The translations under genes were made by a program, and so were the position numbers. Below, one piece after another: positions 7,792-38,999 of a stretch of DNA of 43,045 nucleotides. Source of the stretch: Fulvivirga imtechensis AK7 (GTDB lineage: Bacteria; Bacteroidota; Bacteroidia; Cytophagales; Cyclobacteriaceae); NCBI RefSeq assembly GCF_000331535.1, contig NZ_AMZN01000031.1, positions 1 to 43,045 of the forward strand, in the 5' to 3' direction. Under the pieces are notes generated by a model. That model was given only the letters and a program-made list of their open reading frames with translations, searched no databases and had not been told where the DNA came from. Every line of letters starts with the position of its first letter. The first letter of the stretch is position 1.

Positions 7792-7803
7792 TGATGAAAA
7801 TCA
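7792..7803. promoter_or_regulatory. TGAT-N4-ATCA palindrome (FNR/CRP-like operator)
   Basis: TGAT-GAAA-ATCA, an exact match to the window-wide palindrome, lies between aconitase and the lipoprotein gene at 7906, ending 102 bp before its ATG. Likely an activator site for the lipoprotein/CDP-alcohol transferase/flavodoxin group. Confidence 0.55.
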
Positions 7804-7905
7804 TGGAACGTAAGGATAAGCATCATACCTGTTAGATGTTTGAATAAGTAATATTGTTATCAGAACAAGGGCCGGAAATGATTCTCAGGCCAAAAACCTA
7901 CCACT

Positions 7906-8322
7906 ATGAAAAGAATACTGATAACCGCAGGCTTAACAGGGTTAATATTGATCATAGGGGGATGTGCTTCTACCGGTCTCACAACCTCTAGTCATTTGAC
8001 CAACGTTGAACTCAGAGAACCAAATTTTAAAATTGTGGCTACGAATGTTTCTGGTGAGGCCTCATCAGGAGCGGTTTTTGGGGTGAGTTATGGTCTGGGG
8101 ATGGCTACTACCCAGGTCGCGTTGATACCCTTGAGTAATAACCGGTTGCTTTACAAAACGGCTATGCAAAATTTGTGGAACAACTTTGAATCAGCGAATG
8201 GCAAACCTGTTGACCGGAAGCTGGCTTTGGTCAATGTTAGGTACGATTCCGAGTCTTTAAATTTATTCTTCTATACCAAAGTGACAACTGTGGTAGTTGC
8301 GGATGTGGTTGAATTTCAATAG
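7906..8322 (+). CDS. DUF6567-like lipoprotein
   Basis: 138 aa with a clear lipoprotein signal: MKR, a hydrophobic core, and C20 in the lipobox I-G-G-C. The mature part contains SHLTNVELREPNFKIVATNV, then a glycine-rich GVFGVSYGLG turn. This resembles the small Bacteroidota lipoprotein family I know as DUF6567; the assignment is from memory. The function is unknown. It probably heads a transcript with the CDP-alcohol transferase (8 bp gap) and the flavodoxin, downstream of an FNR-like palindrome. Confidence 0.75.
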   Translation: MKRILITAGLTGLILIIGGCASTGLTTSSHLTNVELREPNFKIVATNVSGEASSGAVFGVSYGLGMATTQVALIPLSNNRLLYKTAMQNLWNNFESANGKPVDRKLALVNVRYDSESLNLFFYTKVTTVVVADVVEFQ

Positions 8323-8329
8323 TAACGAT

Positions 8330-8926
8330 ATGAATACCCACAAGACCAGTTATTATGTCATCAACGGTATAACCATGTATCGCCTGGTTTCAGCGCCATT
8401 TTTGCTGCTGCTGGCTTATATCGGAGAGGTGGTGTGGTTTAAGTGGCTGTTGGCGCTAAGCTTTCTAACTGATGCCATTGACGGACCGTTGTCACGCAAA
8501 TTTAATGTGACCAGCGTGTTTGGATCAAGACTGGATTCTGTGGCAGACGATGCAACCGTTTTGGTATCTACAATTGCGATTTGGCTTATCCACCCCGAAT
8601 TTATCAACAGCAAATGGATGGTTATAGTTGCACTGTTGGCTTTGTTCGGTATTCAAACCGTAGCTGCTTTGGTAGCATATCAGCGGGTTACCAGCTTTCA
8701 TACTTACCTGGCCAAGACTGCGGCTGTGGTACAAGCCATTTTTTTTATAATGATATTCTTTCACCTCGGACCGGTGCAACTGATGTTTTACATAGCTGCA
8801 CTAATTACGGCAGTACAGCTTTTGGAGGAGATAATTCTTGTGATCCTCCTGCCGGAATGGAAGGCCAATGTAAAAGGGTTGTATTGGGTATTGAGATTTC
8901 AAAAACATACACTACACTCCGATTAG
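8330..8926 (+). CDS. CDP-alcohol phosphatidyltransferase family protein
   Basis: 198 aa from ATG 8330. The open frame extends upstream, overlapping the lipoprotein end, but the ATG eight bases after that stop is the natural start. It carries the family signature D-x2-D-G-x2-[A/S]-R-x8-G-x3-D-x3-D as DAIDGPLSRKFNVTSVFGSR followed by LDSVADD, with Ser in place of the usual Ala. About six hydrophobic segments surround it. The enzyme transfers a phospho-alcohol from a CDP-linked lipid precursor to another alcohol in the inner membrane, as PgsA and PssA do; the acceptor cannot be told. Being in a stress-gene neighbourhood, it may be an accessory rather than housekeeping enzyme. Confidence 0.85.
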   Translation: MNTHKTSYYVINGITMYRLVSAPFLLLLAYIGEVVWFKWLLALSFLTDAIDGPLSRKFNVTSVFGSRLDSVADDATVLVSTIAIWLIHPEFINSKWMVIVALLALFGIQTVAALVAYQRVTSFHTYLAKTAAVVQAIFFIMIFFHLGPVQLMFYIAALITAVQLLEEIILVILLPEWKANVKGLYWVLRFQKHTLHSD

Positions 8927-8945
8927 AACTGCAAACACTACACCT

Positions 8946-9485
8946 ATGAAGACTTTAATAATTTATTACTCCTTTACCAGCAACAACGAACTTTTAGCCA
9001 GGGATATACAGGAAAAACTGGATTGCGATATGGCCAGGATCGAAGAGGAGAAAAAGAGGACCGGGTTTACCATTTTTATGGATATATTTTTCAAAAGAAA
9101 GCCCAGGATCAAGCAACTGCACGTATTTCTCAATGATTATGACAATTTTATATTCATAGCACCTATCTGGGCGGGCAAAATAGCTTCTCCGCTGAGGTCA
9201 TTCCTGGTATTGGAAAAGGACAACATCAGTCGCTACTCATTTATAACAATATGTGGAGGAGTGCCAGGGCAGAAAGAAAAAATTACCGGAGAACTTACAA
9301 AGCTGGTGCGAAAATCACCACAAAATGTGACCGAACTGTGGATCAACGATCTTTTACCCAAAGAGAAAAAGGATACAGTGAAATACACCACTGCCTACAG
9401 AATAAAGCAAGCCGATCTGGACGCTTTCAATCATGAGGTATACGAATTTTTAAAGGAGAGCGAGGCGCTTGAATACCATCAGTAA
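8946..9485 (+). CDS. Flavodoxin family protein
   Basis: 179 aa. The N terminus MKTLIIYYSFTSNNELLA is a flavodoxin FMN phosphate-binding loop (S-x-T-S-x-N-x-x-L/T type). FIFIAPIWAGKIASPLRSF at about residues 68-86 is the second FMN loop with its aromatic residue, and ITICGG follows at the third. A small cytoplasmic FMN protein that likely acts as electron carrier or NAD(P)H:quinone-type reductase. It lies 19 bp after the CDP-alcohol transferase and is probably co-transcribed with it. Confidence 0.88.
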   Translation: MKTLIIYYSFTSNNELLARDIQEKLDCDMARIEEEKKRTGFTIFMDIFFKRKPRIKQLHVFLNDYDNFIFIAPIWAGKIASPLRSFLVLEKDNISRYSFITICGGVPGQKEKITGELTKLVRKSPQNVTELWINDLLPKEKKDTVKYTTAYRIKQADLDAFNHEVYEFLKESEALEYHQ

Positions 9486-9499
9486 GATCAATTAGCAAA

Positions 9500-9543
9500 C
9501 CAGAAACCAGAAACCAGAAACCAGAAACAAGACCAGTGACCAG
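9500..9543. repeat. Heptanucleotide tandem repeat (CCAGAAA)4
   Basis: Four perfect copies of CCAGAAA (9500-9527) are followed by variant units CCAGTGA and CCAG. It lies in the convergent gap between the flavodoxin and coiled-coil protein A genes. The 7-bp period recurs at three other intergenic loci in the window. Confidence 0.85.
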
Positions 9544-9547: not shown

Positions 9548-9961
9548 CTACATCGCTTTTTCAATAAACTCAAAAAACTCCTCCTTGTATTGGATAAATT
9601 GCCTGCTAAATGACTCAAGTTCGTTCATTATTGCATCATGTTCCCGGAAGTATTCTATTTTTGATTCATCTTTCCTTTCCAGCATATCCGCCAGTTTTTT
9701 CTCATGAAGCCGCAGTTTGCCGGTGAGCTCATTAATTAGCTCTCCTCTATAGTAGAGGATAATATTTTGGAAATATTCAATTTTTTGTTTGTCTTCAGCA
9801 GCCGAAAATTTTTGGGCATACTGGTCTAGTAGTTTCTGAAAGAAAGCGAGTTCATGTTTCCATAAAACGGCTGAGGATAGCCACTCCAGCGTTTTTCTGT
9901 GTTTGTTGAGTAGTGTTGGCTGTACAATATACCTGTCTGTAGCCGATGTAACAGAGATCAT
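9548..9961 (-). CDS. Coiled-coil stress-locus protein A (paralogue of 38490-38903)
   Basis: 137 aa from ATG 9961. An upstream TTG at 9988 is possible, but the ATG gives exactly the length of the paralogue at 38490-38903. It is all-helical, charged, and has no signal or membrane segment. Both paralogues share EWL...WK-x-E-[L/M]-AFF-x-KLL near residues 26-46, a central L-x-G...HEK-x-LA, and a C-terminal helix ending K-x-E-x-F. I do not recognise the family. It is divergent from PEP synthase across a 220-bp gap with an FNR-like palindrome; its paralogue is divergent from a universal stress protein in the same way. This suggests a soluble accessory stress protein; the role is unknown. Confidence 0.78.
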   Translation of the reverse strand: MISVTSATDRYIVQPTLLNKHRKTLEWLSSAVLWKHELAFFQKLLDQYAQKFSAAEDKQKIEYFQNIILYYRGELINELTGKLRLHEKKLADMLERKDESKIEYFREHDAIMNELESFSRQFIQYKEEFFEFIEKAM

Positions 9962-10086
9962 AATTAGTGCTTTTAGTTTAGTAGTCAAAACTAGTCATCA
10001 TACTAGTCAACAAGGATGATGGTAATCAGGTTCTCAGGGTGATTGTTGTCATGTTTTAAGGGGGTAGGATATTACGTGACAAAACC

Positions 10087-10098
10087 TGATGTAAATCA
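10087..10098. promoter_or_regulatory. TGAT-N4-ATCA palindrome in divergent promoter
   Basis: TGAT-GTAA-ATCA ends 83 bp before the PEP synthase ATG and starts 125 bp from the coiled-coil protein A ATG. A one-mismatch copy, TGAT-TGTT-GTCA, lies at 10040-10051, 47 bp away. Likely a shared activator site for both divergent genes. Confidence 0.6.
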
Positions 10099-10181: not shown

Positions 10182-12578
10182 ATGAAGACAACCTATATAT
10201 TATCATTCAATAAACTGACCATGCAGGACCTGGCAAAAGTAGGAGGTAAAAATGCCTCGTTGGGTGAAATGATCCAAAAGCTGACGCCACTAGGGGTTAA
10301 TGTGCCCGGGGGTTTTGCGATCACCGCAGGCGCCTATTATGATTTTCTTTCATACAACGAGCTAAACAATAAAATTCAGGTTGAGCTTGATATGTTGGAT
10401 CGTGCCACACTAGACAACCTTCCTCAAGTAGGGGCGCGGTGTCGCGATCTGATACTGAAGGCCACATTTCCTGAAAAGGTGCAGCGAGCAATAGCAGATG
10501 CTTATTACGAGTTTGTAGCAGCAGAGGGAAAGGTCGCTACTTTTGCCGTTCGTAGCAGTGCAACAGCAGAAGATTCTCCAACAGCGAGCTTTGCGGGTCA
10601 GCATGATTCCTTTCTAAATGTATCCGGCCTGGATAATTTACTGGATGCAGTACAGCGATGCTATGCGTCCCTGTTTAACGACAGGGCTATCAAATATCGC
10701 ATGGATAATGGCTTTGACGATATGCAGGTAGGGCAGTCTGTGGGGATACAACTGATGGTGAGAGCAGACAAAGGCAGTGCCGGAGTAATATTTACCATAG
10801 AACCCGAGACCGGAAATAAGAACCTGATATATGTAACAGGAGCATGGGGTTTAGGAGAAAGTGTAGTTCAGGGCGCAGTAAATACCGATGAATTCTACCT
10901 GTTCAAGCCTGCCATCGAGGCGGACAAAAGGTCATTGATCTACAGTGTACTAGGTAATAAACAGCAGATGGTGGTATATGGTGCCGGATCCGGTAAGAAC
11001 ACCACCTGGAAAGAAACTCCACCTGCCTTGAGAGATCAGTATGTGCTTACCGATGATGAGATATCGACACTGGGCAAATGGTCATTAAGTATTGAGCGGC
11101 ATTACGACCTGCCAATGGATATAGAATGGGCTAAGGATGGTCTTTCGGGAAAGTTATACATTGTACAGGCGAGGCCTGAAACTGTACATTCCACCAATAG
11201 GGAATTGGTGTTGAAAGAATATAAGTTGTCAACCAGGGAAACTCCATTGCTTACAGGAAAGGCAGTGGGACGTTCCGTTGTCAGCGGCAAGGTCAGTATT
11301 GTGAAGTCTCTGGCTGATGGAGCTAAGGTGGAGGCTGGCAATATAATAGTAGCAGACATTACCAACCCCGATTGGAATGCTTTGCTGAAAAAAGCCATAT
11401 GTATCGTAACCAACAAAGGAGGTAGGACCAGTCATGCTTCTATTATTGCGAGAGAACTGGGCATACCGGCAGTGGTGGGTACGATGGCTGCCACTGAAAA
11501 ACTGGTAGACGGGCAGGAGATCACCGTTTCCTGTGCGGGGGGCGATGAGGGATATATCTACAATGGCAAGCTGAACTGGGAGGAGAAAGAAACTACCCTT
11601 CAATCCATCGCCAGAACAAAAACAAAGCCTATGTTCATATTGGCGGATCCCCAAAAGGCGCTGCTTTATGCTTCATATCCCAACCAGGGGGTGGGATTAT
11701 TGAGAATGGAGTTCATGATCAGCAATAGCTTGCAGGTACACCCCATGGCGCTGATCAAATATAATGAGCTACCGGACGATAAGGAGAAAAAGCAGATCGA
11801 TGCGCTCACCCGGCACTATATTGATAAAAAGCAGTTTTTTGTTGATAAGCTGGCTCAGTCTATAGCCTTGGTGGCAGCCGCTTTTTATCCCAAAGAGGTA
11901 ATTGTGCGTATGAGTGATTTCAAGACGAATGAGTACGCCAAATTACTAGGAGGAAGGCTTTTTGAGCAGGAGGAGGAAAACCCGATGTTGGGATTCAGAG
12001 GGGCCAGCCGCTATTATAACGAACGATATCGCGAAGGATTTGGACTCGAATGTGCGGCTATCAGGAAAGTACGGAATGAAATGCTCCTGACCAATGTGAA
12101 GGTAATGATCCCTTTCTGCCGCACAGTTGAAGAAGGTAAAAAAGTGCTCGATGTGATGTCATCATTCGGATTGGAAAGAAAGAAAAATGACCTTGAGGTG
12201 TATGTAATGGCTGAAATTCCGAGTAATATCCTGCTTGCTGCGGAGTTTGCTACATTGTTTGACGGATTTTCGATCGGTTCCAACGACCTTACACAACTCA
12301 CACTTGGGCTTGACCGCGATTCAGCTATTGTTAGTGATCTTTTTAACGAAAATGATGCTTCTGTACTGTACCTGATAAGGCGACTGATTGAGGTAGCCCA
12401 TGAACATGGCGTGAAGGTCGGGTTGTGTGGTCAGGCTCCCAGTGACTATCCGGATTTTGCCCGCTTTCTTGTTGAGTGTGGTATTGATTCAATTTCATTT
12501 AATCCTGATGCTCTCATGCGAGGTATTGAAAATATTGCGCTTGCTGAGGCAGAAGTTAAGGTTGTTTTTAACACATAA
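10182..12578 (+). CDS. ppsA: Phosphoenolpyruvate synthase
   Basis: 798 aa, the usual length. The enzyme makes PEP from pyruvate and ATP (giving AMP and phosphate) and feeds gluconeogenesis. The N-terminal ATP-grasp domain shows GGKNASLGEM (21-30) and VRSSATAEDSPTASFAGQ (123-140). The swivelling phosphohistidine domain has GGRTSHASIIARELGIPA with catalytic H418, and the C-terminal PEP/pyruvate barrel ends with VGLCGQAPSD containing C749. The start follows GGAGCC closely. It is divergent from coiled-coil protein A, under an FNR-like palindrome, and ends at a hairpin terminator. In other bacteria such enzymes are induced in stress or low-oxygen regulons; that is an inference here. Confidence 0.95.
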   Translation: MKTTYILSFNKLTMQDLAKVGGKNASLGEMIQKLTPLGVNVPGGFAITAGAYYDFLSYNELNNKIQVELDMLDRATLDNLPQVGARCRDLILKATFPEKVQRAIADAYYEFVAAEGKVATFAVRSSATAEDSPTASFAGQHDSFLNVSGLDNLLDAVQRCYASLFNDRAIKYRMDNGFDDMQVGQSVGIQLMVRADKGSAGVIFTIEPETGNKNLIYVTGAWGLGESVVQGAVNTDEFYLFKPAIEADKRSLIYSVLGNKQQMVVYGAGSGKNTTWKETPPALRDQYVLTDDEISTLGKWSLSIERHYDLPMDIEWAKDGLSGKLYIVQARPETVHSTNRELVLKEYKLSTRETPLLTGKAVGRSVVSGKVSIVKSLADGAKVEAGNIIVADITNPDWNALLKKAICIVTNKGGRTSHASIIARELGIPAVVGTMAATEKLVDGQEITVSCAGGDEGYIYNGKLNWEEKETTLQSIARTKTKPMFILADPQKALLYASYPNQGVGLLRMEFMISNSLQVHPMALIKYNELPDDKEKKQIDALTRHYIDKKQFFVDKLAQSIALVAAAFYPKEVIVRMSDFKTNEYAKLLGGRLFEQEEENPMLGFRGASRYYNERYREGFGLECAAIRKVRNEMLLTNVKVMIPFCRTVEEGKKVLDVMSSFGLERKKNDLEVYVMAEIPSNILLAAEFATLFDGFSIGSNDLTQLTLGLDRDSAIVSDLFNENDASVLYLIRRLIEVAHEHGVKVGLCGQAPSDYPDFARFLVECGIDSISFNPDALMRGIENIALAEAEVKVVFNT

Positions 12579-13943: not shown

Positions 13944-14414
13944 TTATGTCCTGCTAACTAAAGCGGCATATTCAATTATAGGCTTCATCACCACTTTTGC
14001 AGTTATTGAATTGGAAATGAGACAAGCTGTCTCTGCTTTTACCAATATCCGTATGGTACGATCAAAGTCGTCTTCATCAAAAATAGTGACCCTGGGCTCA
14101 ATATACACCTCTGACATCTGTAGTTTTCCATCCAGTTTTTCCAGCTTTCCGCTTGATTGACAACTGAATGATTTAAATGCAAGTTTTGAACTTTCGGCTA
14201 CTGCCAGAAAGGTGGTCATAAAGCAACTACTCACCGCTGCGGTAAACAAATGTTCAGGAGACCAAATACCGGGCATACCCTGAGGAAATTGAGGGGGAGT
14301 GGCTACCTCTATATGTTGATTTTTGGAAGATTCATCGTTTAGTTCAGGGGAGTGCATAACACCTTTTCTGTGGCTACTCCAGGTTACATTGACATTATAA
14401 AAATGTGGTTCCAT
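13944..14414 (-). CDS. OsmC family peroxiredoxin-like protein
   Basis: 156 aa. The OsmC/Ohr fold is shown by WSPEHLFTAAVSSCFMTTFLA (about residues 51-71), with the first reactive cysteine at C64, and AETACLISNSI (about 128-138), with the second. These two thiols reduce organic hydroperoxides in the cytoplasm. Length and motif order are normal for the general OsmC branch (CLISNSI rather than the Ohr CPYS). It is alone on the minus strand, with an FNR-like palindrome about 90 bp upstream of its ATG, consistent with stress control. Confidence 0.9.
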   Translation of the reverse strand: MEPHFYNVNVTWSSHRKGVMHSPELNDESSKNQHIEVATPPQFPQGMPGIWSPEHLFTAAVSSCFMTTFLAVAESSKLAFKSFSCQSSGKLEKLDGKLQMSEVYIEPRVTIFDEDDFDRTIRILVKAETACLISNSITAKVVMKPIIEYAALVSRT

Positions 14415-14482
14415 ACGGGTTATAATTTTTGCTAATAAAAAATAAATTCTTTAAAGCTACCTTTTACCCCCAGGCCAATGAA

Positions 14483-14516
14483 TGATCGGGCTCATGTGGC
14501 AATATGATTAATATCA
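14483..14516. promoter_or_regulatory. TGAT-N4-ATCA palindrome plus near-copy upstream of the OsmC-family gene
   Basis: TGAT-TAAT-ATCA at 14505-14516 is exact. TGAT-CGGG-CTCA at 14483-14494 has one mismatch. The pair is 22 bp apart, about two DNA turns, so both would face the same side. The exact site lies 90 bp upstream of the OsmC-family start on the minus strand. Confidence 0.55.
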
Positions 14517-14762: not shown

Positions 14763-14847
14763 GATTGCTGGTTTGTTTTGTGACTTGCAGCTTAGGGCTC
14801 GAGGTTTGCAGCTATGGCCAACTGAAGTATAAAATCTCTCTTATGAA

Positions 14848-14859
14848 TGATTGCAGTCA
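14848..14859. promoter_or_regulatory. Near-match TGAT-N4-GTCA palindrome
   Basis: TGAT-TGCA-GTCA, one mismatch, lies 128 bp before the chosen start of the baeRF-like gene. It overlaps an earlier possible ATG (14847), which argues that the true start is downstream. Confidence 0.35.
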
Positions 14860-14987
14860 TTGGCGCTGACATAAATAATAGCGTACTTTTCGATATAAAA
14901 AGGCATGAAAATGGAAGCTGTGGGGGTTTACCTGTTATTATCACAAATTACCTGTTTCCGACATTTTACAGGCGTCTTATTTTAAAA

Positions 14988-16961: not shown

Positions 16962-18509
16962 ATGACAGTACAAAAACCAACTGCACTAGAGGGCGAAGCC
17001 GGATTCAGGGTATTATTTAATTGCGCCACGGTCAGTATCATCGTTGTTAATGAAAGAGGGTGTATTGAGTTGGCTAATCCGTATACAGAAGAGTCTTTTG
17101 GGTATTCTGTGGAGGAGTTAACGGGCGAACCTGTCGAGATATTGATCCCAGAGGAACTCCGTGAAAAACACAGTCTCATAAGGGAAGAATATTTTAAAGA
17201 TCCGGAGGATCGCCCGATGGGTCTGGGTATGGAGTTATACGCTCGCAGGAAGAATGGAGAAGTCTTTCCTGTAGAGGTTGGCCTCGGACACTATGAACTG
17301 GACAATGAAAAACTGGCAGTAGCTTTCATAACCGATATATCAGAGCAAGTTCAGGCCAGGAAAATTCTGGCCGATCGTGAGCAATGGCTTCGAAGTATGG
17401 CTGATAATGCTCCGGTAATGATCTGGGTAACCGATTCGAATGGGAAATGGACCTATTTCAACAAAACATGGCTTCAGTTTACGGGGCGTTTACTGGAAGA
17501 TGGTCTGGGCACTGGCTGGACAGAAAATGTCCACCCTAACGACCTGCCCCGAACGGTTACTAATTATAACAATGCTTTAGAGAACCATCAGTCTTTTTCA
17601 ATCGAATACCGGCTGAGGCGCCACGATGGCAAATATCGCTGGATCCGGGATACAGGCAACCCAGCATATACCCCGGAAGGTGAATTTACCGGGTATGTCG
17701 GGTGTTGTCATGATATACATGATCAGCGATTGACCCAGGAAAAGCTGGAGGATCTGGTTTGGCATCGTACAAAGAGGTTGCATAAGGTGCTCAGTCGTGA
17801 AAAAGAGATGAACGCCCTGAAGTCGAGATTTGTTTCTATGGCTTCTCATGAACTGCGCACCCCCCTGAGTATTGCCCTTTCGAGCCTCATGTTGGTAGAG
17901 CAATATGGTACATGGGAAAAGGATGAAAGGGTGGGTAAGCACCTTCAGAGGATCAGAACATCCATCAATAGTATCAGCACGATACTGGGCGACTTTCTAT
18001 CACTGGATAAGCTGGAACAGGGCAAGGTAGTGTTAGAGTTAGAGATGTTCGATCTGTTGAAATTTATGTACGAAGTGATCGAAGACGTTAAGGCGCTGAA
18101 GAAGAAAGGGCAGCATATCTACTTAAGCCATAAGGGAGACAGGACCGTTATCCTGGACAGGAAAAAGCTTCACTATATCATGAAAAACCTGGTTTCAAAT
18201 GCCATAAAATACTCTCCGGAATATACTGACATCGAGCTAAATTTTGAGAATAACGAAAAGAGCATCTCTATGATGGTCAGAGATCATGGTATTGGTATAC
18301 CCGAAGATGAGCAGCAATATATGTTTAATAAGTTTTTCCGGGCCAAAAACACAGAGGGTATTTCTGGCACCGGCCTTGGTATGACTATTGTAAATCAATA
18401 TGTCGAACTAATGAAAGGAACTATACACTTCACCAGTAAAGAAGGAGAGGGCACTACATTTACTATGGAAATGCCACAGCATAACCATGAAAACCATACT
18501 CATCATTGA
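16962..18509 (+). CDS. PAS-domain sensor histidine kinase
   Basis: 515 aa, cytoplasmic (no membrane segment). PAS1 spans about 12-128 and PAS2 about 140-258, the latter with the PAS/PAC signature YRLRRHDGKYRWIRD. A coiled coil links to HisKA with FVSMASHELRTPL (phospho-acceptor H296). HATPase follows: N box NLVSNAIKYSP near 410, G1 DHGIGIP near 445, G2 GTGLGM near 468. It ends overlapping the response regulator by 23 bp, so the two are translationally coupled. The layout resembles the kinase at 39078, which has an extra membrane anchor. The signal is unknown; no haem or flavin site was recognised. Confidence 0.93.
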   Translation: MTVQKPTALEGEAGFRVLFNCATVSIIVVNERGCIELANPYTEESFGYSVEELTGEPVEILIPEELREKHSLIREEYFKDPEDRPMGLGMELYARRKNGEVFPVEVGLGHYELDNEKLAVAFITDISEQVQARKILADREQWLRSMADNAPVMIWVTDSNGKWTYFNKTWLQFTGRLLEDGLGTGWTENVHPNDLPRTVTNYNNALENHQSFSIEYRLRRHDGKYRWIRDTGNPAYTPEGEFTGYVGCCHDIHDQRLTQEKLEDLVWHRTKRLHKVLSREKEMNALKSRFVSMASHELRTPLSIALSSLMLVEQYGTWEKDERVGKHLQRIRTSINSISTILGDFLSLDKLEQGKVVLELEMFDLLKFMYEVIEDVKALKKKGQHIYLSHKGDRTVILDRKKLHYIMKNLVSNAIKYSPEYTDIELNFENNEKSISMMVRDHGIGIPEDEQQYMFNKFFRAKNTEGISGTGLGMTIVNQYVELMKGTIHFTSKEGEGTTFTMEMPQHNHENHTHH

Positions 18510-18864
18510 GGATAATTACGATATCAGGGATAATACCGCTGAAATACTGGAGCTGGCAGATTATGAAATAATGGTTGCTGAAGATGGTGTGCAGGGACTA
18601 TATAAGATCAAAGAACGAAGGCCTGATCTGGTACTCTGCGATATACTCATGCCTAAAATGAACGGTTTCGAGGTCCTCAGGCAGTTGAAAAATAACCCTT
18701 CAACGGTTGATATCCCCTTTATATATGTTGCCGCCAGTGTAGAAAAAGATGAAGTTTTGATGGCAATGGACATGGGGGCTGATGGCTATATTGGCAAACC
18801 CTTTGAAGTCGAAGATCTTATTGAAAAGGTACGGGAAAAAATGGCATTGCTAAACCGGGAATGA
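18487..18864 (+). CDS. Single-domain response regulator
   Basis: 125 aa, receiver only (CheY-like). Acidic pocket E8/D9, phospho-acceptor D52 in LVLCDILMP, and K104 in IGKPFE are present. At the conserved Thr/Ser switch (position 82, where the paralogue at 19742 has T in FIYLTA) this protein has Ala (FIYVAA), so its activation may be altered or it may act as a phosphate relay or sink. It overlaps the upstream kinase by 23 bp and is its natural partner. No DNA-binding output is attached. Confidence 0.92.
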   Translation: MKTILIIEDNYDIRDNTAEILELADYEIMVAEDGVQGLYKIKERRPDLVLCDILMPKMNGFEVLRQLKNNPSTVDIPFIYVAASVEKDEVLMAMDMGADGYIGKPFEVEDLIEKVREKMALLNRE

Positions 18865-20242: not shown

Positions 20243-20254
20243 TGATCTCCATCA
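20243..20254. promoter_or_regulatory. TGAT-N4-ATCA palindrome upstream of hsp20
   Basis: TGAT-CTCC-ATCA is exact and ends 59 bp before the Hsp20 ATG. A weaker TGAT-GAAA-GTCT lies 22 bp upstream at 20221-20232, again two turns away. Confidence 0.6.
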
Positions 20255-22147: not shown

Positions 22148-22159
22148 TGACAAAAATCA
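22148..22159. promoter_or_regulatory. Near-match TGAC-N4-ATCA palindrome
   Basis: TGAC-AAAA-ATCA ends 83 bp before the PfkB-family ATG, the same distance as the exact site before ppsA. A neighbouring dyad ACGAAC-AAC-GTTCGT (22165-22179) may be a second operator. Confidence 0.4.
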
Positions 22160-28080: not shown

Positions 28081-28140
28081 ATATACAAGCTTGTTTTTTT
28101 ATATAAATGCCGCTGTTTGTCACAGCAGTTTTATAGTCTG

Positions 28141-29517: not shown

Positions 29518-29529
29518 GTGAAGGAGCCG

Positions 29530-29946: not shown

Positions 29947-29969
29947 AGTTGAGGTTTGGTTTAATATGG

Positions 29970-32540: not shown

Positions 32541-32551
32541 TGTTCATATAT

Positions 32552-33778
32552 TCATTTTTGTAGCGCTTCTACGGGGCGCAATCCGATTGCTTTAATTGCA
32601 GGAATGAGTGATGATAGCAAAGCTGCCATCAGTACGATCAGCATCTGGCTCAATATCTTTTCCCAGGGAAATGCCGGGTAGATCATTGAGCTGAAGCCAA
32701 ATTCTGACATGGCTTGCCCACCGAGAGCTGAAATATCCAAGCCATGACGATGGTATATCTTTACAATAACCCAGGTGGCAAACACACCTGTTGGAACTCC
32801 CGTTATTGTTAAAAAAACCGTTTCGGTTAGTATCATGGAAAAGATCTTCACGCGGTTCATGCCCAGGGCTAGCAGCATGCCTATTTCACGCGAACGCTCC
32901 AGTACAGCCATGAGCATGGTATTCACAATGCCAAATGATAATGCAAGCATGATGATAATAATAAAAATAAGGGAGTACTGGTCTGTGGTTTCTATCATTA
33001 ATTTAGTTTCAGGTGAGATCTCTTTCCAGGACTCAATTTTCAGTTCGGGATATTTACTTTTCAGTGCCGCCTGCACATCTTCCACGTCACCATCTTTTTG
33101 GAGCAGTATAGCTATTTCATGGACTTCTCCATCCAGAGAGAGATATAGCCTCAGATCGTCTTGTTTTACAAAAGCTATCCTTTCATCCATTGGAGTATTG
33201 TCCGTTTGGTAAATTCCGGCAACCCGAAACGCACCCGAAACAATATTGCTTTCTTTGTCAATGAACGTCAAAATGGCTTTAGAGCCTACCTTCAGGTGCA
33301 TTTTATCAGCCAGTTTTTTACCTATGAGCAACTGGTTCTTTTTACCATTAGAAAAGCCTTTTCCATCTTTCAGTTTAGCATTCAGTCCGCTCACTTGATT
33401 TTCTTGTTCCGGATCAACTCCTACAAGCTGGATAGCTGAGGATCCGGTTCCTGTTGCCAGCATACCCTGTGCGACAGTGCGGGAGGTAAATACCTTAACA
33501 GTTGGCAGGTGGTGTAGATGCTCGATGAGTTCATCTTTCCCGGGGATCACATATTTGGGGTCGAAATCTTCTTTAAAGCGGACATGATGGACCTGGAGAT
33601 GAGACACTTCCCTGTCAATCACCGTTCTTACCCTGTCTTCAAGAATTCCTTTATACAGGCTGAGTACGAATAGCCCCGCTACCAAACCAATAGCTACTGA
33701 ACTGATGATGATCAGGCTCCTGACCTTGTTTCGCCAGATGTTACGCCAGGCCATTTGTATGATGATGATCACATTCAT
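32552..33778 (-). CDS. ABC transporter permease, LolC/LolE/FtsX type (second subunit)
   Basis: 408 aa. TM1 (about 15-40) with the WRNIWRNKVRSLIII amphipathic elbow, a large periplasmic MacB-core domain (50-265), then three TMs ending near 395. The GIVNTMLMAVLERSREIGMLLALG motif is the FtsX core. It forms a heterodimer with the permease at 33775-34992, whose 3' end it overlaps by 4 bp (ATGA). The pair likely extracts lipid-linked cargo from the inner membrane for the LolA-like protein. Confidence 0.92.
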   Translation of the reverse strand: MNVIIIIQMAWRNIWRNKVRSLIIISSVAIGLVAGLFVLSLYKGILEDRVRTVIDREVSHLQVHHVRFKEDFDPKYVIPGKDELIEHLHHLPTVKVFTSRTVAQGMLATGTGSSAIQLVGVDPEQENQVSGLNAKLKDGKGFSNGKKNQLLIGKKLADKMHLKVGSKAILTFIDKESNIVSGAFRVAGIYQTDNTPMDERIAFVKQDDLRLYLSLDGEVHEIAILLQKDGDVEDVQAALKSKYPELKIESWKEISPETKLMIETTDQYSLIFIIIIMLALSFGIVNTMLMAVLERSREIGMLLALGMNRVKIFSMILTETVFLTITGVPTGVFATWVIVKIYHRHGLDISALGGQAMSEFGFSSMIYPAFPWEKILSQMLIVLMAALLSSLIPAIKAIGLRPVEALQK

Positions 33779-34992
33779 TTTTTCATTGCTTTGACAGGGT
33801 CTATTTTAAAAACAGTAATTACCGGATACAGGGAGAGTACCAGACCAATACCAAGCACTATCAATCCCTGGGTAATGAAAATAGAAGGGTCGGTAGAAGC
33901 CGGGAAAACAGGTTCGAAGTTGAAGCGCTTGTAAGTTTCGGCCATTTCTCCACCTATGCGTATCGGGTGCTCTTTCAGGTAGTAAACCAGGGGAATACTG
34001 CACAATAATCCTGTGACAGAGCCTATGATGACGGTGAATATCGACTCAGTAAGGAAAAGCATGGCCAATATTCCTTTTTTCATACCAATCGCCACGAGCA
34101 TTCCTACTTCATACCTGCGCTCTACCATCATCATCAGCATGGTACCGAATATGCCGAAGCAAATGAGCAGGTACAATATGCCGAGAATGATATACATGCT
34201 ACCTTTGTCCATTTTTATATGCTGGTCTACATCAGGAAGAAGTTCTTTCCAGCTCATCACCTCGTACGTATCACCGGATATCTGTCTGAGGTTTGAAACC
34301 GTAGATTCGAGGGTTTTGTCAAACTTCAGACCCAATACATAGGAGGTTACGAGATCAGGGGCAGCGTAGAACTCCTGAGCAGTTTTTAACGGCATGAACA
34401 GCAACTGGTCGTTAAGTTCCGGTGAACCGAAGCTGACGAAACCTCTGATCAGGTACTTGCCGGCAGCAAGCGCGCCATGATAGCCCTGGCTGATAAGATA
34501 TATTGTATCTTTTACCTGGAGACTAAATCTTTCCGCCAGCCCCTCAGATAAGATCACGGTATTGCCGCCATTGTGATCAAAATAGTCCCCGGCGATCACC
34601 TTCTTTTGGAGCCCTGTGATCTTGTTTTCCTCTTCAGGGTGTATCCCTACCACCATACATCCTTTGGTGAGGTCTTTAAATGATGCTAATGCATATGATT
34701 CAATACGGGGAGCCATAGCGGTAATATTCTTTTGACCCCTGATCCTGGTTTCGTATTGCTCGTTTCGGAGCATTCCGTTATCCAGCACCTGGTGGTCCCA
34801 ATACCCTTGTTGGTGAATTTGGATGTAACCGGTGTAGTAGCTCACCATGTTTTTAATAAAATTGTCAAACACACCATCCTGAAGACTGCTGGCAGCAATG
34901 GACAATATCACGGCAAAAAAAATAGCCGCAGTAGTAATGCTGGTGCGATGCTTATTTCGCCATAAATTTTTCCATGCAAGTCTGAACCACAT
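33775..34992 (-). CDS. ABC transporter permease, LolC/LolE/FtsX type (first subunit)
   Basis: 405 aa. The same topology and elbow (WKNLWRNKHRTSITT) as its neighbour, with the FtsX core GIFGTMLMMMVERRYEVGMLVAIG. A large extracytoplasmic domain covers about 50-260. The two permeases are homologous but clearly diverged, so a heterodimer is expected. It begins 1 bp after the LolA-like gene stop. Confidence 0.92.
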   Translation of the reverse strand: MWFRLAWKNLWRNKHRTSITTAAIFFAVILSIAASSLQDGVFDNFIKNMVSYYTGYIQIHQQGYWDHQVLDNGMLRNEQYETRIRGQKNITAMAPRIESYALASFKDLTKGCMVVGIHPEEENKITGLQKKVIAGDYFDHNGGNTVILSEGLAERFSLQVKDTIYLISQGYHGALAAGKYLIRGFVSFGSPELNDQLLFMPLKTAQEFYAAPDLVTSYVLGLKFDKTLESTVSNLRQISGDTYEVMSWKELLPDVDQHIKMDKGSMYIILGILYLLICFGIFGTMLMMMVERRYEVGMLVAIGMKKGILAMLFLTESIFTVIIGSVTGLLCSIPLVYYLKEHPIRIGGEMAETYKRFNFEPVFPASTDPSIFITQGLIVLGIGLVLSLYPVITVFKIDPVKAMKK

Positions 34993-34993
34993 T

Positions 34994-35731
34994 TTAATTG
35001 AGTTTTTTCATTTGTTGCAGCGTGAAAAAAGTATCGGGTATCGGTTCGTTGTATGTTACGCTTGAGTAGATCAATACTGTTTTCTGGTTTGGCTTATCCG
35101 CAGGGATCATTTCTATATGTGTGGGAATGAGCCTGCCACCCATCGTTTTTATTTCATAGGCATTCATGATATTAATCAATTCCCCATCTTCATCATAAAA
35201 CTTCGTATGTAGCTCCAGGAAGTCTTTTTTGTCAATATTTAGGGTCAGTTTGCCCCAAACAATGGCCGCTTCCGGTTTGGGTACCATATTAATAGTGTAA
35301 CACTCGCGACCGTTGATGGTAGTATCCCCGGCAAAACTGTGGATATAGTCCTCCACGATCGATGACTCTTTCACCAGGTCATCATTGGTAAAATCAGTCC
35401 CCATCCACGACTGGGTCATCATAGACGGGGGTAGTTTAATAGATCTTTCCAGGGCTGGCACCCAATTCCACACTTCCTTTTCACGCTTTAAAAAGACCAC
35501 TCCTTTCTCTTTAGCAGGACTTTTGATCAATACTATAGCATATTTTTCACCCTTCATCCAGGTTTTGACGGTCATTTCCCGCTGCCAGGTAGGACGAACC
35601 GTTCGGATGATCAATTCTGATTGGGAGGTTTCGCCTCGCATATTGTCGTTGGCCCTTTGCACTACCTCTGTTGCAGTAAGTGCAAGGTGTTGATGCCAAT
35701 TAGTAAGGAGTATGAAAAAAATCGTAGTCAC
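34994..35731 (-). CDS. LolA-like outer-membrane lipoprotein-sorting protein
   Basis: 245 aa. GTG start: an in-frame stop lies a little upstream and no ATG is available. The N terminus (MTTIFFILLTNWHQHLALTA) is a short hydrophobic signal. The pattern EVVQRANDNMRGETSQSELI, then MKGEKYAIVLIKSPAKEKG and WNWVPALERSIKLPPSMM followed by TQSWMGTDFTNDDL, is the LolA-like family (pfam-type outer membrane lipoprotein-sorting protein). It would carry a lipid or lipoprotein in the periplasm. It heads a five-gene unit with two permeases, an ATPase and a barrel; no LolB is present. Confidence 0.88.
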   Translation of the reverse strand: MTTIFFILLTNWHQHLALTATEVVQRANDNMRGETSQSELIIRTVRPTWQREMTVKTWMKGEKYAIVLIKSPAKEKGVVFLKREKEVWNWVPALERSIKLPPSMMTQSWMGTDFTNDDLVKESSIVEDYIHSFAGDTTINGRECYTINMVPKPEAAIVWGKLTLNIDKKDFLELHTKFYDEDGELINIMNAYEIKTMGGRLIPTHIEMIPADKPNQKTVLIYSSVTYNEPIPDTFFTLQQMKKLN

Positions 35732-35790
35732 GGTATGCTGATTTATTCGTTTTATACTGTAAGATTACTCATAGCTATGCGCAGTTGTAA

Positions 35791-35871
35791 TGATTCCTGT
35801 CAACCATTGTCATGACATTTGTCACGCGCTGTATTCACAACCCAAATCTCCTTTATCCATGATTGCCATCA
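35791..35871. promoter_or_regulatory. Operator-like cluster between LolA-like operon and bactofilin-like gene
   Basis: Exact TGAT-TGCC-ATCA at 35860-35871 is 106 bp before the ATG at 35978. One-mismatch TGAT-TCCT-GTCA at 35791-35802 is 59 bp from the LolA-like start. Between them lies a perfect 10-bp palindrome, TGTCATGACA (35808-35817). All are in the divergent gap. Confidence 0.55.
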
Positions 35872-35977
35872 TTGACCAACCCCTTGCTTATATATAAATT
35901 ATTGGCAGTAAGTTAACATAGGGCAGATTCCCGGAAAGGCAAGGTGAGGGGAGCCTGAAAACATAAAATCGTTGAGT

Positions 35978-37189
35978 ATGAAAACTAACCTATTGCCTGC
36001 TTTGATGATCGTACTGGCTTCAACCACCCTGGTATTTGGGCAAGTGGAGTCGGGAGAGACTGTTGTGATCAGTGAAAGAGTGATGAATGATCTTTACGTT
36101 GCCGGTGGCACCGTTACTGTTAATACACCTATAGAAGGTGATCTTGTTGTGGCAGGAGGAACTATCATTGTAAATGATTCTGTGAAACAGGATATTTTGG
36201 TTGGCGGAGGGAACATCACCCTAAACGGGTATGTCGGAGATGATGTGCGTTGTGCCGGTGGGTCGGTCAACATAATGAAGGGAGTGGGCGGAGACCTGGT
36301 GGTCACTGGTGGTAGTATAAGTATTGGCCCGGGTGTAGTAGTTAGTGACAATCTCTTTGTTTCCGGTGGTAAAATTATTTTCAGTGGGGAAGTGAGGGGC
36401 ATGGTAAAAAGTGCGGCTGGTGCATTTACCATGAATGGCCGGGTGCTGGGTGATATGGATTGCCGCGGTGGGGAGCTCACCATCAACGGTGCAGTAGATG
36501 GACAGTCGACATTAGCTGCTGAGGAGATAATCATCGGGCCTCAAGCCAGGTTCAGAAACGATGTGCGCTATTGGAGCCGGCAGGGTACTGTGGACTTTGG
36601 TAATGCATTACAGGAAAGCCAGGCAATATTCGATCCATCGCTGAAAATTGAGAGTGGCAGGTGGGAATTCTTCGGTTTTAGTTCGTTTATCCTGCTTTTA
36701 TGGTATCTGGGTACAGCGCTGCTGATGATCTTTATTATACAATACCTCTTTAGTAAAACGATGAAACGAGCTGCATCCACCGTGAAGGACAGCGCTGCCA
36801 AATCTCTTGGATGGGGAGTTTTATTTTTAATAGGGGTGCCTATAGCCATCGTGGTGGCCGTGTTCACAGTTATAGGTCTGCCGGTAGCTGCGCTCCTGTT
36901 TATAGGGTACATCACGATACTGTTGTTTGCCACGGTGATAGTTTCTCTAGTGGCAGGCCATTGGATCAATGATACTTACTACCACTCTTCCTGGAGTAAC
37001 AGGAAGCTGGTATTTATGGCCTTTGCTATTTTTATCATCCTAAAACTGGCTACTCTGACACCTGTTATAGGTCCGCTGATCATGCTGCTGCTGGCGTGTA
37101 TGGTGTTTGGAGGTATACTGCATAATATCAAAAGAACACGCAAAGGACCGGAAACGCCAGTTCAGCGAGAGGTGAGCATGGCAGAGTAA
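35978..37189 (+). CDS. Polymer-forming (bactofilin-like) protein with membrane tail
   Basis: 403 aa from ATG 35978; a TTG two codons earlier is less likely. A signal peptide (ends near VFGQ) is followed by a repetitive parallel-beta region (about 30-215) with repeats of the type V-x-G-G-x-(I/V)-x-(I/V)-N-x-x-(I/V)-x-x-D, like bactofilin/polymer-forming cytoskeletal repeats but exported. From about 225 to 375 there are about four membrane segments. Its role may be envelope reinforcement under stress. It is divergent from the LolA-like operon and shares its operator cluster. Confidence 0.82.
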   Translation: MKTNLLPALMIVLASTTLVFGQVESGETVVISERVMNDLYVAGGTVTVNTPIEGDLVVAGGTIIVNDSVKQDILVGGGNITLNGYVGDDVRCAGGSVNIMKGVGGDLVVTGGSISIGPGVVVSDNLFVSGGKIIFSGEVRGMVKSAAGAFTMNGRVLGDMDCRGGELTINGAVDGQSTLAAEEIIIGPQARFRNDVRYWSRQGTVDFGNALQESQAIFDPSLKIESGRWEFFGFSSFILLLWYLGTALLMIFIIQYLFSKTMKRAASTVKDSAAKSLGWGVLFLIGVPIAIVVAVFTVIGLPVAALLFIGYITILLFATVIVSLVAGHWINDTYYHSSWSNRKLVFMAFAIFIILKLATLTPVIGPLIMLLLACMVFGGILHNIKRTRKGPETPVQREVSMAE

Positions 37190-37310: not shown

Positions 37311-38150
37311 CTAAATTTTATTATACGTCCATACGGGGGCGGAGATGTGGTTTACAACATCCTCGGTAATACTGCCGGTAAATAGTCTTGCCAGCCCCTT
37401 TCGGGCGTGAGTAGCCATGGCAATGAGGTCAATACCTTCTTTGTAGGTAAAATCTATGATGCCGTCCTCTTCATTATCATAGCTTTTGAAGTGGAGCGTG
37501 TGATTTTTGAGGTGGTAATGCTTTGCAAATTCCTCAAGAGCTGCAACGGCATCTTTATCTGTCCTGAAGTGGGAAGCGGTATTCACAAGCAATACATGCA
37601 GTGTGGCGCCAAAAAACTCCTGTAGTTCTTTTACTTTATTCATAAAGTCGGTTTGATCTAGCCGTAGAGTAGTGGGTAGCAGTATCTTTTTAATTGAGGA
37701 AACAGGTGGCGCTTTATGTACAGCCAGTACAGGCGCCTGGGCAAAACGCACTATTTTTTCAGTATTTGAGCCAATGAATACTTCGCGTATCCCCGAAGCG
37801 CCCGATGTTCCCATTATGATCAGGTCTGTCTGCTTCCTGTCAACATGATGCTGAATGGCTGAAATAAGATTATCATGAACAATGTCAAGACTAACAGAGA
37901 CCCCCCGGACGCCTGATTCGTTCTTCATTTTTTCATAGCCTCTTTTAGTGTCCTCTTCAATCCTGTTTAAAAAAGAGATATCATATGCCAAAGGAGTGCC
38001 ACCGGCATAGCCGGGATCATATAGCACAGGTACATAGGCGGCATGAAGCACGACAACCTCAGCCTTGGCCCGGGCGACCATCTCCATAGCAAACGTAAAG
38101 GCTTCCCTTGAGGGGGCGCTGAAATCGCAGGGAACAAGTATCCGTTTCAT
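37311..38150 (-). CDS. Tandem universal stress protein (two UspA domains)
   Basis: 279 aa with two Usp folds: 1-148 (MKRILVPCDFSAPSREAF start) and 149-279. The ATP-binding signature G-x2-G-x9-G-S is present in domain 1 as GTSGASGIREVFIGSNTEKI and in degraded form in domain 2 (THARKGLARLFTGSITE). Cytoplasmic; binds ATP and acts in dormancy, oxygen or nutrient stress. It is convergent with the bactofilin-like gene and divergent from coiled-coil protein B, across a cluster of FNR-like palindromes. Confidence 0.93.
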   Translation of the reverse strand: MKRILVPCDFSAPSREAFTFAMEMVARAKAEVVVLHAAYVPVLYDPGYAGGTPLAYDISFLNRIEEDTKRGYEKMKNESGVRGVSVSLDIVHDNLISAIQHHVDRKQTDLIIMGTSGASGIREVFIGSNTEKIVRFAQAPVLAVHKAPPVSSIKKILLPTTLRLDQTDFMNKVKELQEFFGATLHVLLVNTASHFRTDKDAVAALEEFAKHYHLKNHTLHFKSYDNEEDGIIDFTYKEGIDLIAMATHARKGLARLFTGSITEDVVNHISAPVWTYNKI

Positions 38151-38230
38151 GTCTGTTTAATTAGTATTGAGTATTAAATCTTGAGTAAAAGACATGCAAA
38201 GCCAATGGTGGCATAGCCCGGTCGCAATAC

Positions 38231-38265
38231 TCATATCTCATATCTCACGACTCACGACCCACGAC
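38231..38265. repeat. Heptanucleotide tandem repeat
   Basis: Units TCATATC x2, TCACGAC x2 and CCACGAC. The same 7-bp period as at 9500, 14573 and 42865. It lies in the 339-bp divergent gap 38151-38489, upstream of the operator cluster. Confidence 0.75.
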
Positions 38266-38330
38266 TCAATTTTTATTAAAAGTATACAGTACTACTCCAA
38301 TATATAATGATAACCGTTTGGAAGCCGGAA

Positions 38331-38390
38331 TGATTTTTATCACAACCGTTTTTTTAGATAAAAATCATGGCAGCAACATGATGTACATCA
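38331..38390. promoter_or_regulatory. Three TGAT-N4-ATCA sites in the usp / coiled-coil B gap
   Basis: Exact copies TGAT-TTTT-ATCA (38331-38342) and TGAT-GTAC-ATCA (38379-38390), with a one-mismatch AGAT-AAAA-ATCA between them (38356-38367). Spacing is 25 and 23 bp, about two turns. The last site is itself a fully palindromic 12-mer and ends 99 bp before the coiled-coil B ATG; the first is 180 bp from the usp start. Confidence 0.65.
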
Positions 38391-38489
38391 TACTGTAAGC
38401 TTTACACTCTGCATAAATTAGCATTGTATAAATTCCCGGGTATGCATCCGGGGTTGAGGAAAATAGTCATAATAAAAAAATATTAAGTC

Positions 38490-38903
38490 ATGGAATTGAT
38501 AACACGCCCTAGAGAAGAGTACCTGCTTAATGCGAGCCTCGAATCTTTACATGAGGAAAGCAGAGAATGGCTTCAGGAGATAGGTTTTTGGAAGGATGAA
38601 ATGGCCTTCTTTTATAAACTACTGCAGCAAAAGAAAAATGATCCCGATTTTCCGGCAGGTGAAATTGCAGCGCTCGAAAAAGAGCAATTACGCATTGATA
38701 ATGTAAAGATCGATGCCATTAAAGGAGAGGTGAAAAGCCACGAAAAAGCATTGGCTTCACTGTTTAAGGTCAATTCGCTACAGGAAGAAGAAGGATACAG
38801 GCAAATGCATAAGAGGCTTCTTAAAGATATGTATGATGTACATATTCTGGTCAGGAATCTGAAAAAGGAAATATTCTCTATGGTCCAAAAATATGAACGA
38901 TAG
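38490..38903 (+). CDS. Coiled-coil stress-locus protein B (paralogue of 9548-9961)
   Basis: 137 aa, the same length as the paralogue. Highly charged and helical throughout, no signal. Shares REWLxxIGFWKDEMAFFYKLL (residues 26-46 region), KGEVKSHEKALASL in the middle, a YRQMHKRL segment and K-x-E-I-F near the end. I do not recognise a named family. It is divergent from the universal stress protein and downstream of three FNR-like sites, and it is followed 174 bp later by the PAS kinase of the hybrid two-component system. Likely a stress-induced soluble helical-bundle protein; the mechanism is unknown. Confidence 0.8.
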   Translation: MELITRPREEYLLNASLESLHEESREWLQEIGFWKDEMAFFYKLLQQKKNDPDFPAGEIAALEKEQLRIDNVKIDAIKGEVKSHEKALASLFKVNSLQEEEGYRQMHKRLLKDMYDVHILVRNLKKEIFSMVQKYER

Positions 38904-38965
38904 CAGAGGCAAAGTTACTGCTGCATTGTATACAGGACCTTTTGCCTGGCCAGAACATCCAATGA

Positions 38966-38999
38966 TGATAAATATCATCTCTATACTTGACAAACGTCA
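38966..38999. promoter_or_regulatory. TGAT-N4-ATCA site pair upstream of the hybrid two-component operon
   Basis: Exact TGAT-AAAT-ATCA at 38966-38977 is 100 bp before the kinase start, and TGAC-AAAC-GTCA at 38988-38999 is 22 bp downstream, a perfect palindrome of the same shape (TGA-N6-TCA). A further dyad GTCAT-GCCA-ATGAC overlaps the second. They suggest feedback control by the regulator encoded in this operon. Confidence 0.6.

Follow-up and report, generated by a model that had tools for sequence, protein, structure and literature searches.

The palindrome TGAT-N4-ATCA recurs before stress-related genes on contig NZ_AMZN01000031.1 of Fulvivirga imtechensis AK7 (Bacteroidota), and most probably it belongs to an activator promoter architecture which is widespread in the Bacteroidia and whose version on this contig would control stress survival through a two-component regulator, a receiver domain (REC) joined to a Crp/Fnr protein (hereafter REC-Crp). 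The window, that is the whole stretch of DNA that was analysed, is this entire contig (C31; 43,045 nucleotides) of a draft genome with 6.74 Mb and 225 contigs. We observed that the motif is better written TGAY-N4-RTCA, and that two copies often stand together at a spacing of exactly 22 bp. In the reading which we favour, and which we consider reasonably probable owing to the spacing controls and to the islands of recurring genes, the sites would be operators of Crp/Fnr activators, REC-Crp their main reader, and the genes behind them a network for stress survival and low-oxygen respiration. What this offers is a promoter code, namely two 12-bp operators 22 bp apart and then 23 nt to TAnnTTTG, together with a widespread candidate regulator family and predicted starts.

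Tandem sites and their distance to the -7 element

A letter scan of the window returned 14 exact copies of TGAT-N4-ATCA, against a mean of 1.3 and a maximum of 5 in 100 dinucleotide shuffles, none of which held 14; the chance level of about one exact copy, estimated in a preliminary description of this DNA, was therefore sound. The eight exact and six one-mismatch copies which that description named (the latter at 10040, 14483, 14848, 22148, 35791 and 38356) are all present at their positions. Its intergenic set is indeed intergenic and its coding copy at 41973 coding, but only one coding copy had been noticed where five exist: the copies at 30179, 33703, 33760 and 35167 (all coding) had been overlooked, as had an intergenic one at 10017. 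By our own gene calls (genes other than those checked with Pfam were called with a codon-score caller of our own and not taken from a standard annotation), nine exact copies lie in 10.4 kb of intergenic and five in 32.6 kb of coding DNA. Seven of the eight named copies end 59-102 nt before the start of an open reading frame (ORF), in keeping with the proposed 60-110 bp; the copy at 38331 does not fit, its distance being 147 nt to coilB and 180 nt to the gene of a universal stress protein (Usp). TGAT ranks first among the 256 palindromic 4+4+4 half-sites in the intergenic DNA of the window (nine copies; next six), and when 13 spacer lengths (0-12) are compared, intergenic copies are most numerous at a spacer of 4, in the window as well as in a sample of the same genome. 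This sample comprises 46 other pieces with 864 kb (51 pieces, of which 5 under 3 kb were dropped) and is not random, seven pieces having been chosen for the Crp/Fnr genes on contigs C29 and C21; the reduced sample without the C29/C21 pieces comprises 39 pieces with 729 kb.

Several pairs of sites had been said to lie 22-25 bp apart, which is borne out by the seven pairs measured in the window: four are spaced by 22 bp (7792/7814, 14483/14505, 35791/35813 and 38966/38988), two by 23 bp (10017/10040 and 38356/38379) and one by 25 bp (38331/38356). Across a set of 98 related genomes, the genome of the window included, the 22-bp tandem (10 nt between copies) occurs as 159 pairs in 51 genomes, whereas a spacing control with a 27-bp period (15 nt between copies) yields eight pairs in six genomes. 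From the fetched loci, 98 distinct pairs were collected (not all of the 159; duplicates and pairs at most 60 bp from a locus end were dropped). None of these lies in coding DNA according to our gene calls, and the nearest gene reads away from the pair in 96 cases; one pair is flanked by converging genes and one lies at a locus end. Between pair and start codon there are most often 45-60 bp, though gaps up to 1,167 bp occur. While the TGAY-N4-RTCA core is present in these pairs by selection, the base outside the first copy, read both ways, is most often A (A 0.52, C 0.21, T 0.16, G 0.10), with T on the other side; the FNR site TTGAT-N4-ATCAA is not matched, A/T being favoured outside the core instead. 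Among 296 genomes of the phylum, a tally from our table gives tandem sites in 32 of the 73 genomes of the same class versus 6 of 223 of other classes.

TAnnTTTG was taken as the Bacteroidota -7 element. Behind 116 pair-gene sides (48 with short and 68 with longer gaps), TAnnTTT(G/C) is matched 38 times, 22 of them at an offset of exactly 23 nt, one at 22, one at 24 and the remaining 14 scattered. In islands of relatives, fetched around a close REC-Crp orthologue (F. kasyanovii, here G001, and the genomes G008, G014, G029, G038 and G047), TAnnTTT(G/A/C) has 25 matches at offset 23, against a mean of 0.66 elsewhere and 8 at one other offset; the same pattern has 10 matches against 0.35 in the 46-piece sample, seven of the ten coming from C29 and C21. 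The composite site-N23-TAnnTTTG counts 331 occurrences in 83 of the 98 genomes, and its control with 18 nt counts 35 in 26. For 13 single or proximal sites of the window, whose directions were assigned from gene positions after some -7 matches were already known, offset 23 ranks first with a mean of 4.0 of 6 matching -7 positions, the background over 85 offsets being 1.72 (standard deviation 0.42).

The -7 box of Flavobacterium psychrophilum has been mapped at -12 to -5, according to the accessible part of the source (PMC9723704). Carried over to this organism, for which the positions are hence predicted, this mapping together with the offset of 23 places the proximal site at -47 to -36 (centre -41.5) and the centre of the distal one at -63.5. 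From both positions, Crp/Fnr proteins are known to activate. Before hemA3, an Fnr site has been reported at -41.5 (available part of PMC5398030). The sites show class II geometry, i.e. an activator centred at -41.5, and activation itself is predicted. The palindromes would be bound by dimers of Crp/Fnr-superfamily activators with the consensus TGAY-N4-RTCA: one dimer at -41.5 would replace the -33 element and could touch RNA polymerase, and a second one would often sit two helical turns upstream, at -63.5.

The REC-Crp protein and its PAS kinase

The most likely main reader in the island of the window is a REC-Crp/Fnr protein of 352 aa, which would also activate its own operon. What had been described as a hybrid kinase-regulator is in fact a pair of overlapping genes, one for a PAS kinase and one for the REC-Crp/Fnr protein. 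The features of this operon and of a second kinase are:

38966..38977, + strand: distal site TGATAAATATCA of the kinase/REC-Crp promoter (predicted at about -63.5)
38988..38999, + strand: proximal site TGACAAACGTCA of the same promoter (predicted at about -41.5), 22 bp from the distal one
39023..39030, + strand: -7 element TAATTTAG of the same promoter, 23 nt past the proximal site, 5/6; +1 predicted near 39035
39078..40985, + strand: PAS histidine kinase, overlapping the REC-Crp gene by 4 nt and with its own tandem site
40982..42040, + strand: REC-Crp/Fnr response regulator, 352 aa; receiver 5-116, cNMP_binding 160-244, HTH_Crp_2 279-350 (Pfam)
16962..18509, + strand: second PAS kinase, PAS1 matching FixL, His at the heme-ligand position
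18487..18864, + strand: single-domain receiver after the second PAS kinase

The Pfam scores of the regulator (PF00027 2.4e-21, PF13545 2.6e-14, PF00072 7.1e-27) place it in the Crp/Fnr superfamily, with a receiver. Its recognition helix GTATESLNRTLADF contains ESLNR, with E and R at the base-reading positions; the recognition helix of FNR reads E..SR. In 80 REC-Crp loci, the residue before the helix R is N in 9, I in 67, T in 2 and V in 1 (one was unread). A tie between this N/I change and a preference for C or T at the fourth base of the site, judged by eye, was inconsistent between islands and was dropped. The receiver contains the acceptor Asp as well as the Thr and Lys (stretches LCDIMMP, LTAKT and TKPF). 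Both the window protein and its paralogue on contig C29 have a single cysteine (residues C52 and C51, respectively), and the cysteine set of the iron-sulphur protein FNR is absent from them. With one cysteine, REC-Crp would not sense through an iron-sulphur cluster and should be switched by phosphorylation from the PAS kinase.

The best 80 places for REC-Crp relatives in a scan of named genomes all match over most of the protein, with identities of 64-85% for the first seven and 48-59% for the rest; their hosts, by record titles, are Fulvivirga, Chryseolinea, Cyclobacterium, Echinicola, Pontibacter, Reichenbachiella, Saprospiraceae, Flavobacteriales and others. At 63 of these loci, a kinase start could be read together with its upstream DNA, and in 34 of the 63 the site is found there, more often than any other of 384 palindrome patterns (next 17). 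Tandem sites occur in 39 of the 54 genomes that encode a full-length REC-Crp versus 12 of the 44 that do not (Fisher p ~1e-5, ignoring phylogeny and genome size), and in 24 of 39 versus 12 of 44 when the genus of the window is left out (p 0.002, with the same disregard of phylogeny and size). A narrower proposal, by which only the close REC-Crp proteins (clade A) read the sites, was rejected, tandem sites being frequent also where a genome has only clade B (approximately 50% identical) or lacks a full-length REC-Crp. One relative (G008) possesses two close REC-Crp A copies, on its contigs C54 and C62, both 84% identical to the window protein; one stands in a stress-gene island and the other beside a LolA/curli operon, and the window holds both gene sets on one contig.

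Among solved structures, FixL is the best match for the PAS domains of three kinases, those starting at 39078 and 16962 in the window and that on C29, the last of which likewise carries the heme-ligand His. A kinase ORF is present at 70 REC-Crp loci; at 41 of them the kinase matches FixL, with His in 41/41, and 29 are without a match. The 46 sampled pieces contain six H-box kinases, and the single one with a FixL match is the kinase paired with REC-Crp on C29. As proof of an oxygen sensor, the His at the FixL position was rejected: the other fetched kinases matching FixL share it in 7/7 cases, which makes it a mark of a PAS subfamily and no proof of oxygen sensing. Oxygen is the signal which we would predict for this system.

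Putative target genes and a probable network of islands

In the islands of relatives, many genes of the window recur with the motif between them. Orthologues (at least 45% identity) of site-bearing window genes have the site upstream in 18 of 26 cases, compared with 78 of 407 other genes of the same regions and 4 of 39 orthologues of site-less window genes; the groups of 26 and 39 were sorted by hand after the results were known. The rows for the histidine kinase, REC-Crp and REC2 (1/1, 4/9 and 4/12) were left out of the 26 because of mutual overlap, and the CDP-alcohol transferase (1/1) was included though it is the second gene of its operon in the window. The site is kept in all orthologues of OsmC (2/2), PEP synthase (2/2), LolA (2/2), coilA (3/3) and the sugar kinase (3/3).

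Within the genome, six Crp-HTH matches exceed the family cut-off, two on C29 and one each on C21, C122, C31 and C6. Eight of the 11 perfect composites of the genome sit on three contigs which make up 2.7% of its DNA: C31 with REC-Crp A (one), C29 with REC-Crp B and a FixL-like kinase (four) and C21 with an FNR-like protein (three). This FNR-like protein has 243 aa, with a CxxC in its N-terminal part plus further cysteines. Sites on C29 and C21 precede genes read by eye as HemN, truncated globin, a coil-family protein, quinol nitric oxide reductase and YceI. The 107 proteins considered behind tandem sites (of 113 entries; four repeats and two short ones were left out) include 17 Usp, six Hsp20, three CcoN and two HemN, and genes of metal P-ATPases are present too; 100 control promoters from all 46 pieces of the own-genome sample, C29 and C21 included (of 113 drawn genes; 13 long proteins were left out), gave three Usp and one COX1, with Hsp20 outside the 25 families listed. 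Usp, Hsp20, CcoN and HemN are typical targets of FNR/FixK. The other islands would be headed by the second REC-Crp next to the FixL-type PAS kinase (C29) and by the cysteine-rich FNR-like protein (C21), which as a stand-alone protein may share the same sites. Taken together, the islands seem to form one network of Usp, Hsp20, OsmC, HPF, PEP synthase and curli export with low-oxygen respiration genes. The further sites and genes of the window are:

7792..7825, + strand: tandem pair (7792 exact, 7814 one mismatch); -7 element TAATATTG at 7849-7856
9548..9961, - strand: coilA gene, 137-aa three-helix protein, paralogue of coilB, no Pfam family
9986..9993, - strand: coilA -7 element TAGTTTTG, 6/6; the only perfect composite promoter listed for the window
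10017..10028, - strand: coilA proximal site, read leftwards, exact copy
10040..10051, - strand: coilA distal site TGATTGTTGTCA, one mismatch, 23 bp from the proximal one
10087..10098, + strand: PEP synthase site, exact copy (gene 10182-12578), no good -7 at 23 nt
14483..14516, - strand: OsmC pair (14483 one mismatch, 14505 exact; gene 13944-14414); -7 element TAGCTTTA at 14452-14459
14848..14859, + strand: site TGATTGCAGTCA, one mismatch, before the baeRF_family3 gene
20243..20254, + strand: Hsp20 site, exact copy (gene 20314-20772); -7 element TAGATTTA at 20278-20285
22148..22159, + strand: site TGACAAAAATCA before the sugar kinase (Khk, 22243-23412) and HPF (23461-23790); weak -7
35791..35824, - strand: tandem pair before the LolA-like/ABC operon (34994-35731 and leftwards); -7 element TAATCTTA at 35760-35767, 4/6
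35860..35871, + strand: site before the 405-aa "bactofilin-like" gene 35972-37189; -7 element TAAATTAT at 35895-35902, 4/6
38331..38390, + strand: three sites (38331 exact, 38356 one mismatch, 38379 exact) in the Usp/coilB interval
38414-38421: coilB -7 element TAAATTAG; genes Usp 37311-38150 (-) and coilB 38490-38903 (+)

Behind the pair at 7792..7825 follow genes for a DUF6567 lipoprotein, a CDP-alcohol transferase and a flavodoxin-like protein, the flavodoxin match of the last being below the Pfam cut-off. PEP synthase orthologues in G008 and G047 have the site plus a -7 element (6/6 and 5/6), OsmC orthologues in G001 and G008 have the perfect composite, and in G001 the site lies between OsmC and baeRF. 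The baeRF_family3 protein (PF18845) of the window is encoded at 14847-16097 (+) within the stress-gene cluster; since its ORF start (ATG 14847) overlaps the operator, the true start is probably downstream. For the sugar kinase, none of the species compared has a good -7 element at offset 23. The LolA promoter of G008 contains the identical -7 element at the same offset. Curli export genes (CsgE, CsgF, CsgG and curlin repeats; window 24731-35731, -) are found downstream of the LolA-like/ABC operon, and curli may be under the control of its conserved tandem operator. No Pfam family was assigned to the 405-aa "bactofilin-like" protein.

The coil family (about 137 aa) comprises coilA and coilB, this window pair being without a Pfam match, plus a member at C29:29593-30042. 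The model of coilA consists of three long helices (mean pLDDT 87), and a fold search with it gave no PDB match at E <= 0.001. Eight of the 17 members found, some of them the same place twice, have an operator at most 300 bp upstream. Two further observations concern intergenic DNA of the window: low-complexity runs with TTACTGG/GGTAATCG-like units occur at 14540-14740 and 42870-42930, and two stretches at about 24285-24430 and 24530-24680, both beginning near gttccgggaccctttccgc, look alike by eye and possibly represent a repeat element.

Alternative readings and known systems

Several observations weigh against the sites being Crp/Fnr operators with REC-Crp as their main reader. Twenty-nine of the 63 REC-Crp operons are without a site, and 64 of 224 other genes in those loci have one. 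Orthologues of Usp (3/5), Hsp20 (1/3), coilB (1/3) and the bactofilin-like protein (0/2) keep the site partly or not at all. In the window itself, a perfect composite is present at the coilA promoter only, and several sites (PEP synthase, sugar kinase, Usp) are without a good -7 element at 23 nt. The offset peak is small in the 39 pieces (three matches at 23 and three at 24; elsewhere 0.27 on average and at most 2). The partner kinase of the window REC-Crp, whose PAS resembles the heme-PAS of FixL/DosP, has Asn and no His at the heme-ligand position. Finally, the bare 12-mer, with 17 copies in 162 kb of intergenic and 43 in 702 kb of coding DNA of the 46 pieces, shows no intergenic excess in the 39 pieces (9 in 134 kb of intergenic versus 41 in 595 kb of coding DNA); nor do its counts over whole genomes tell those with REC-Crp from those without. 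The comparison of upstream with coding DNA which the preliminary description had put forward therefore went against it, the 12-mer being no commoner intergenically outside the islands in these 39 pieces. As a genome-wide marker it was rejected, there being no intergenic excess beyond the Crp-bearing contigs and no separation of genomes by the counts; the window copies are a local cluster, with an intergenic density about 13 times the intergenic rate of the 39 other pieces.

A different reader of the window sites, namely the FNR-like protein of C21 or another Crp/Fnr paralogue, with REC-Crp in a minor or different role, is an alternative which we regard as rather unlikely. The FNR-like protein has the same helix pattern E..R and, with its N-terminal CxxC and further cysteines, resembles iron-sulphur FNR proteins; its gene is preceded by a 23-bp-spaced pair with a perfect -7 element. 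Moreover, tandem sites (34 pairs) are present in 12 of the 44 genomes lacking a full-length REC-Crp, which also counts against the reading we favour, insofar as REC-Crp cannot be the sole reader. Set against this, the islands with window genes carry a close REC-Crp orthologue (partly by construction, as they were fetched around it), the REC-Crp operon itself has the site in more than half of the readable cases, and tandem sites are found more often in genomes with REC-Crp.

The preliminary description had proposed a DosR-like response controlled by a Crp/Fnr-type regulator. DosR is a NarL-type regulator, and its regulon in mycobacteria contains Usp, Hsp20, HPF-type and kinase genes under two-component control. 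A strict DosR-like dormancy regulon, i.e. one hypoxia two-component system for non-replicating persistence, would agree with the Usp, Hsp20, HPF and ribokinase-fold kinase genes of the island and with its kinase/regulator pair, but the regulator is of the Crp/Fnr type and not of the DosR family, the site differs as well, and the same sites stand before cbb3 oxidase, HemN, metal P-ATPase and (by eye) nitric oxide reductase genes, which speaks for respiratory adaptation and not for dormancy alone; we consider it improbable. Control of the stress-gene cluster by a Crp/Fnr protein is thus the part of the proposal that held, backed by the site spacing, the -7 distance, the conservation among orthologues and a regulator within the cluster that has its own site, whereas the DosR part did not: with cbb3 oxidase, HemN, Usp and Hsp20 among the targets, a FixK/FNR-like control by low oxygen fits better, and "DosR-like dormancy" would be at most a functional analogy. 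Chance or an artefact of composition, which could invoke the background level of the bare 12-mer genome-wide and a reversed-pattern control that was set aside as too lenient and biased for the 12-mer alone (381 against 50; other spacings were used instead, one each), is hardly credible in view of these spacing controls on the same 98 genomes, the 0/98 pairs in coding DNA and the offset-23 peak in the window.

How genes are controlled at low oxygen in Bacteroidota, a major phylum in soils, the sea and the gut, seems to be little charted, and a full-text literature search, with subscription journals mostly outside its reach, found no description of such an FNR-type operator or of a REC-Crp regulator for this phylum. 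PM2 of Bacteroides thetaiotaomicron is, in the available part of its description (PMC7366714), a near-palindromic motif before oxidative-stress-related genes, with elements at -10 and -30, for which the authors suggest a sigma-factor motif. Compared by description and not by letters, it is alike in being a near-palindrome before stress-related genes in Bacteroidota, and unlike in its elements at -10 and -30 and in the sigma factor suggested. The regulons of FNR and Dnr/FnrL include cbb3 oxidase, denitrification, heme synthesis and Usp targets, with several Crp/Fnr paralogues per network, as far as the accessible part of the source goes (PMC5398030). Crp/Fnr operators read mainly by REC-Crp would share with them the dyad with a 4-bp spacer, the placement at -41.5 and the target classes, and would differ by TGAY-N4-RTCA with A/T outside, by the second copy often 22 bp upstream and by the one cysteine of REC-Crp.

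The closest comparison is the FixL-FixJ-FixK system of Alphaproteobacteria, in which a heme-PAS kinase, a receiver and a Crp/Fnr protein free of iron-sulphur cysteines control cco, cyd, hemN, fixLJ and the gene of the latter protein itself (available part of PMC4999443). Here, too, there are a PAS like that of FixL, a receiver and a Crp/Fnr domain, and the putative targets include cbb3 (CcoN) and HemN, with the difference that receiver and Crp/Fnr protein are fused, that the sites are often tandem and that the Bacteroidota -7 element follows them. The output of FixJ is a NarL-type domain. That of the window regulator, in contrast, is cNMP_binding plus HTH_Crp. Tentatively, and with somewhat more doubt than trust, we suggest that Bacteroidia have merged FixJ and FixK: a PAS kinase, possibly with heme, would phosphorylate REC-Crp/Fnr, whose phosphorylated dimers would bind cooperatively as a tandem at -63.5 and -41.5 in place of the -33 element, while iron-sulphur FNR paralogues would read the same sites, so that oxygen would enter twice, its two inputs being combined at a single promoter architecture throughout the class. 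With receiver and Crp/Fnr in one protein, a two-component signal would, if this is true, reach FNR-type sites directly, in a single step, instead of through a FixL-FixJ-FixK cascade as in Alphaproteobacteria.

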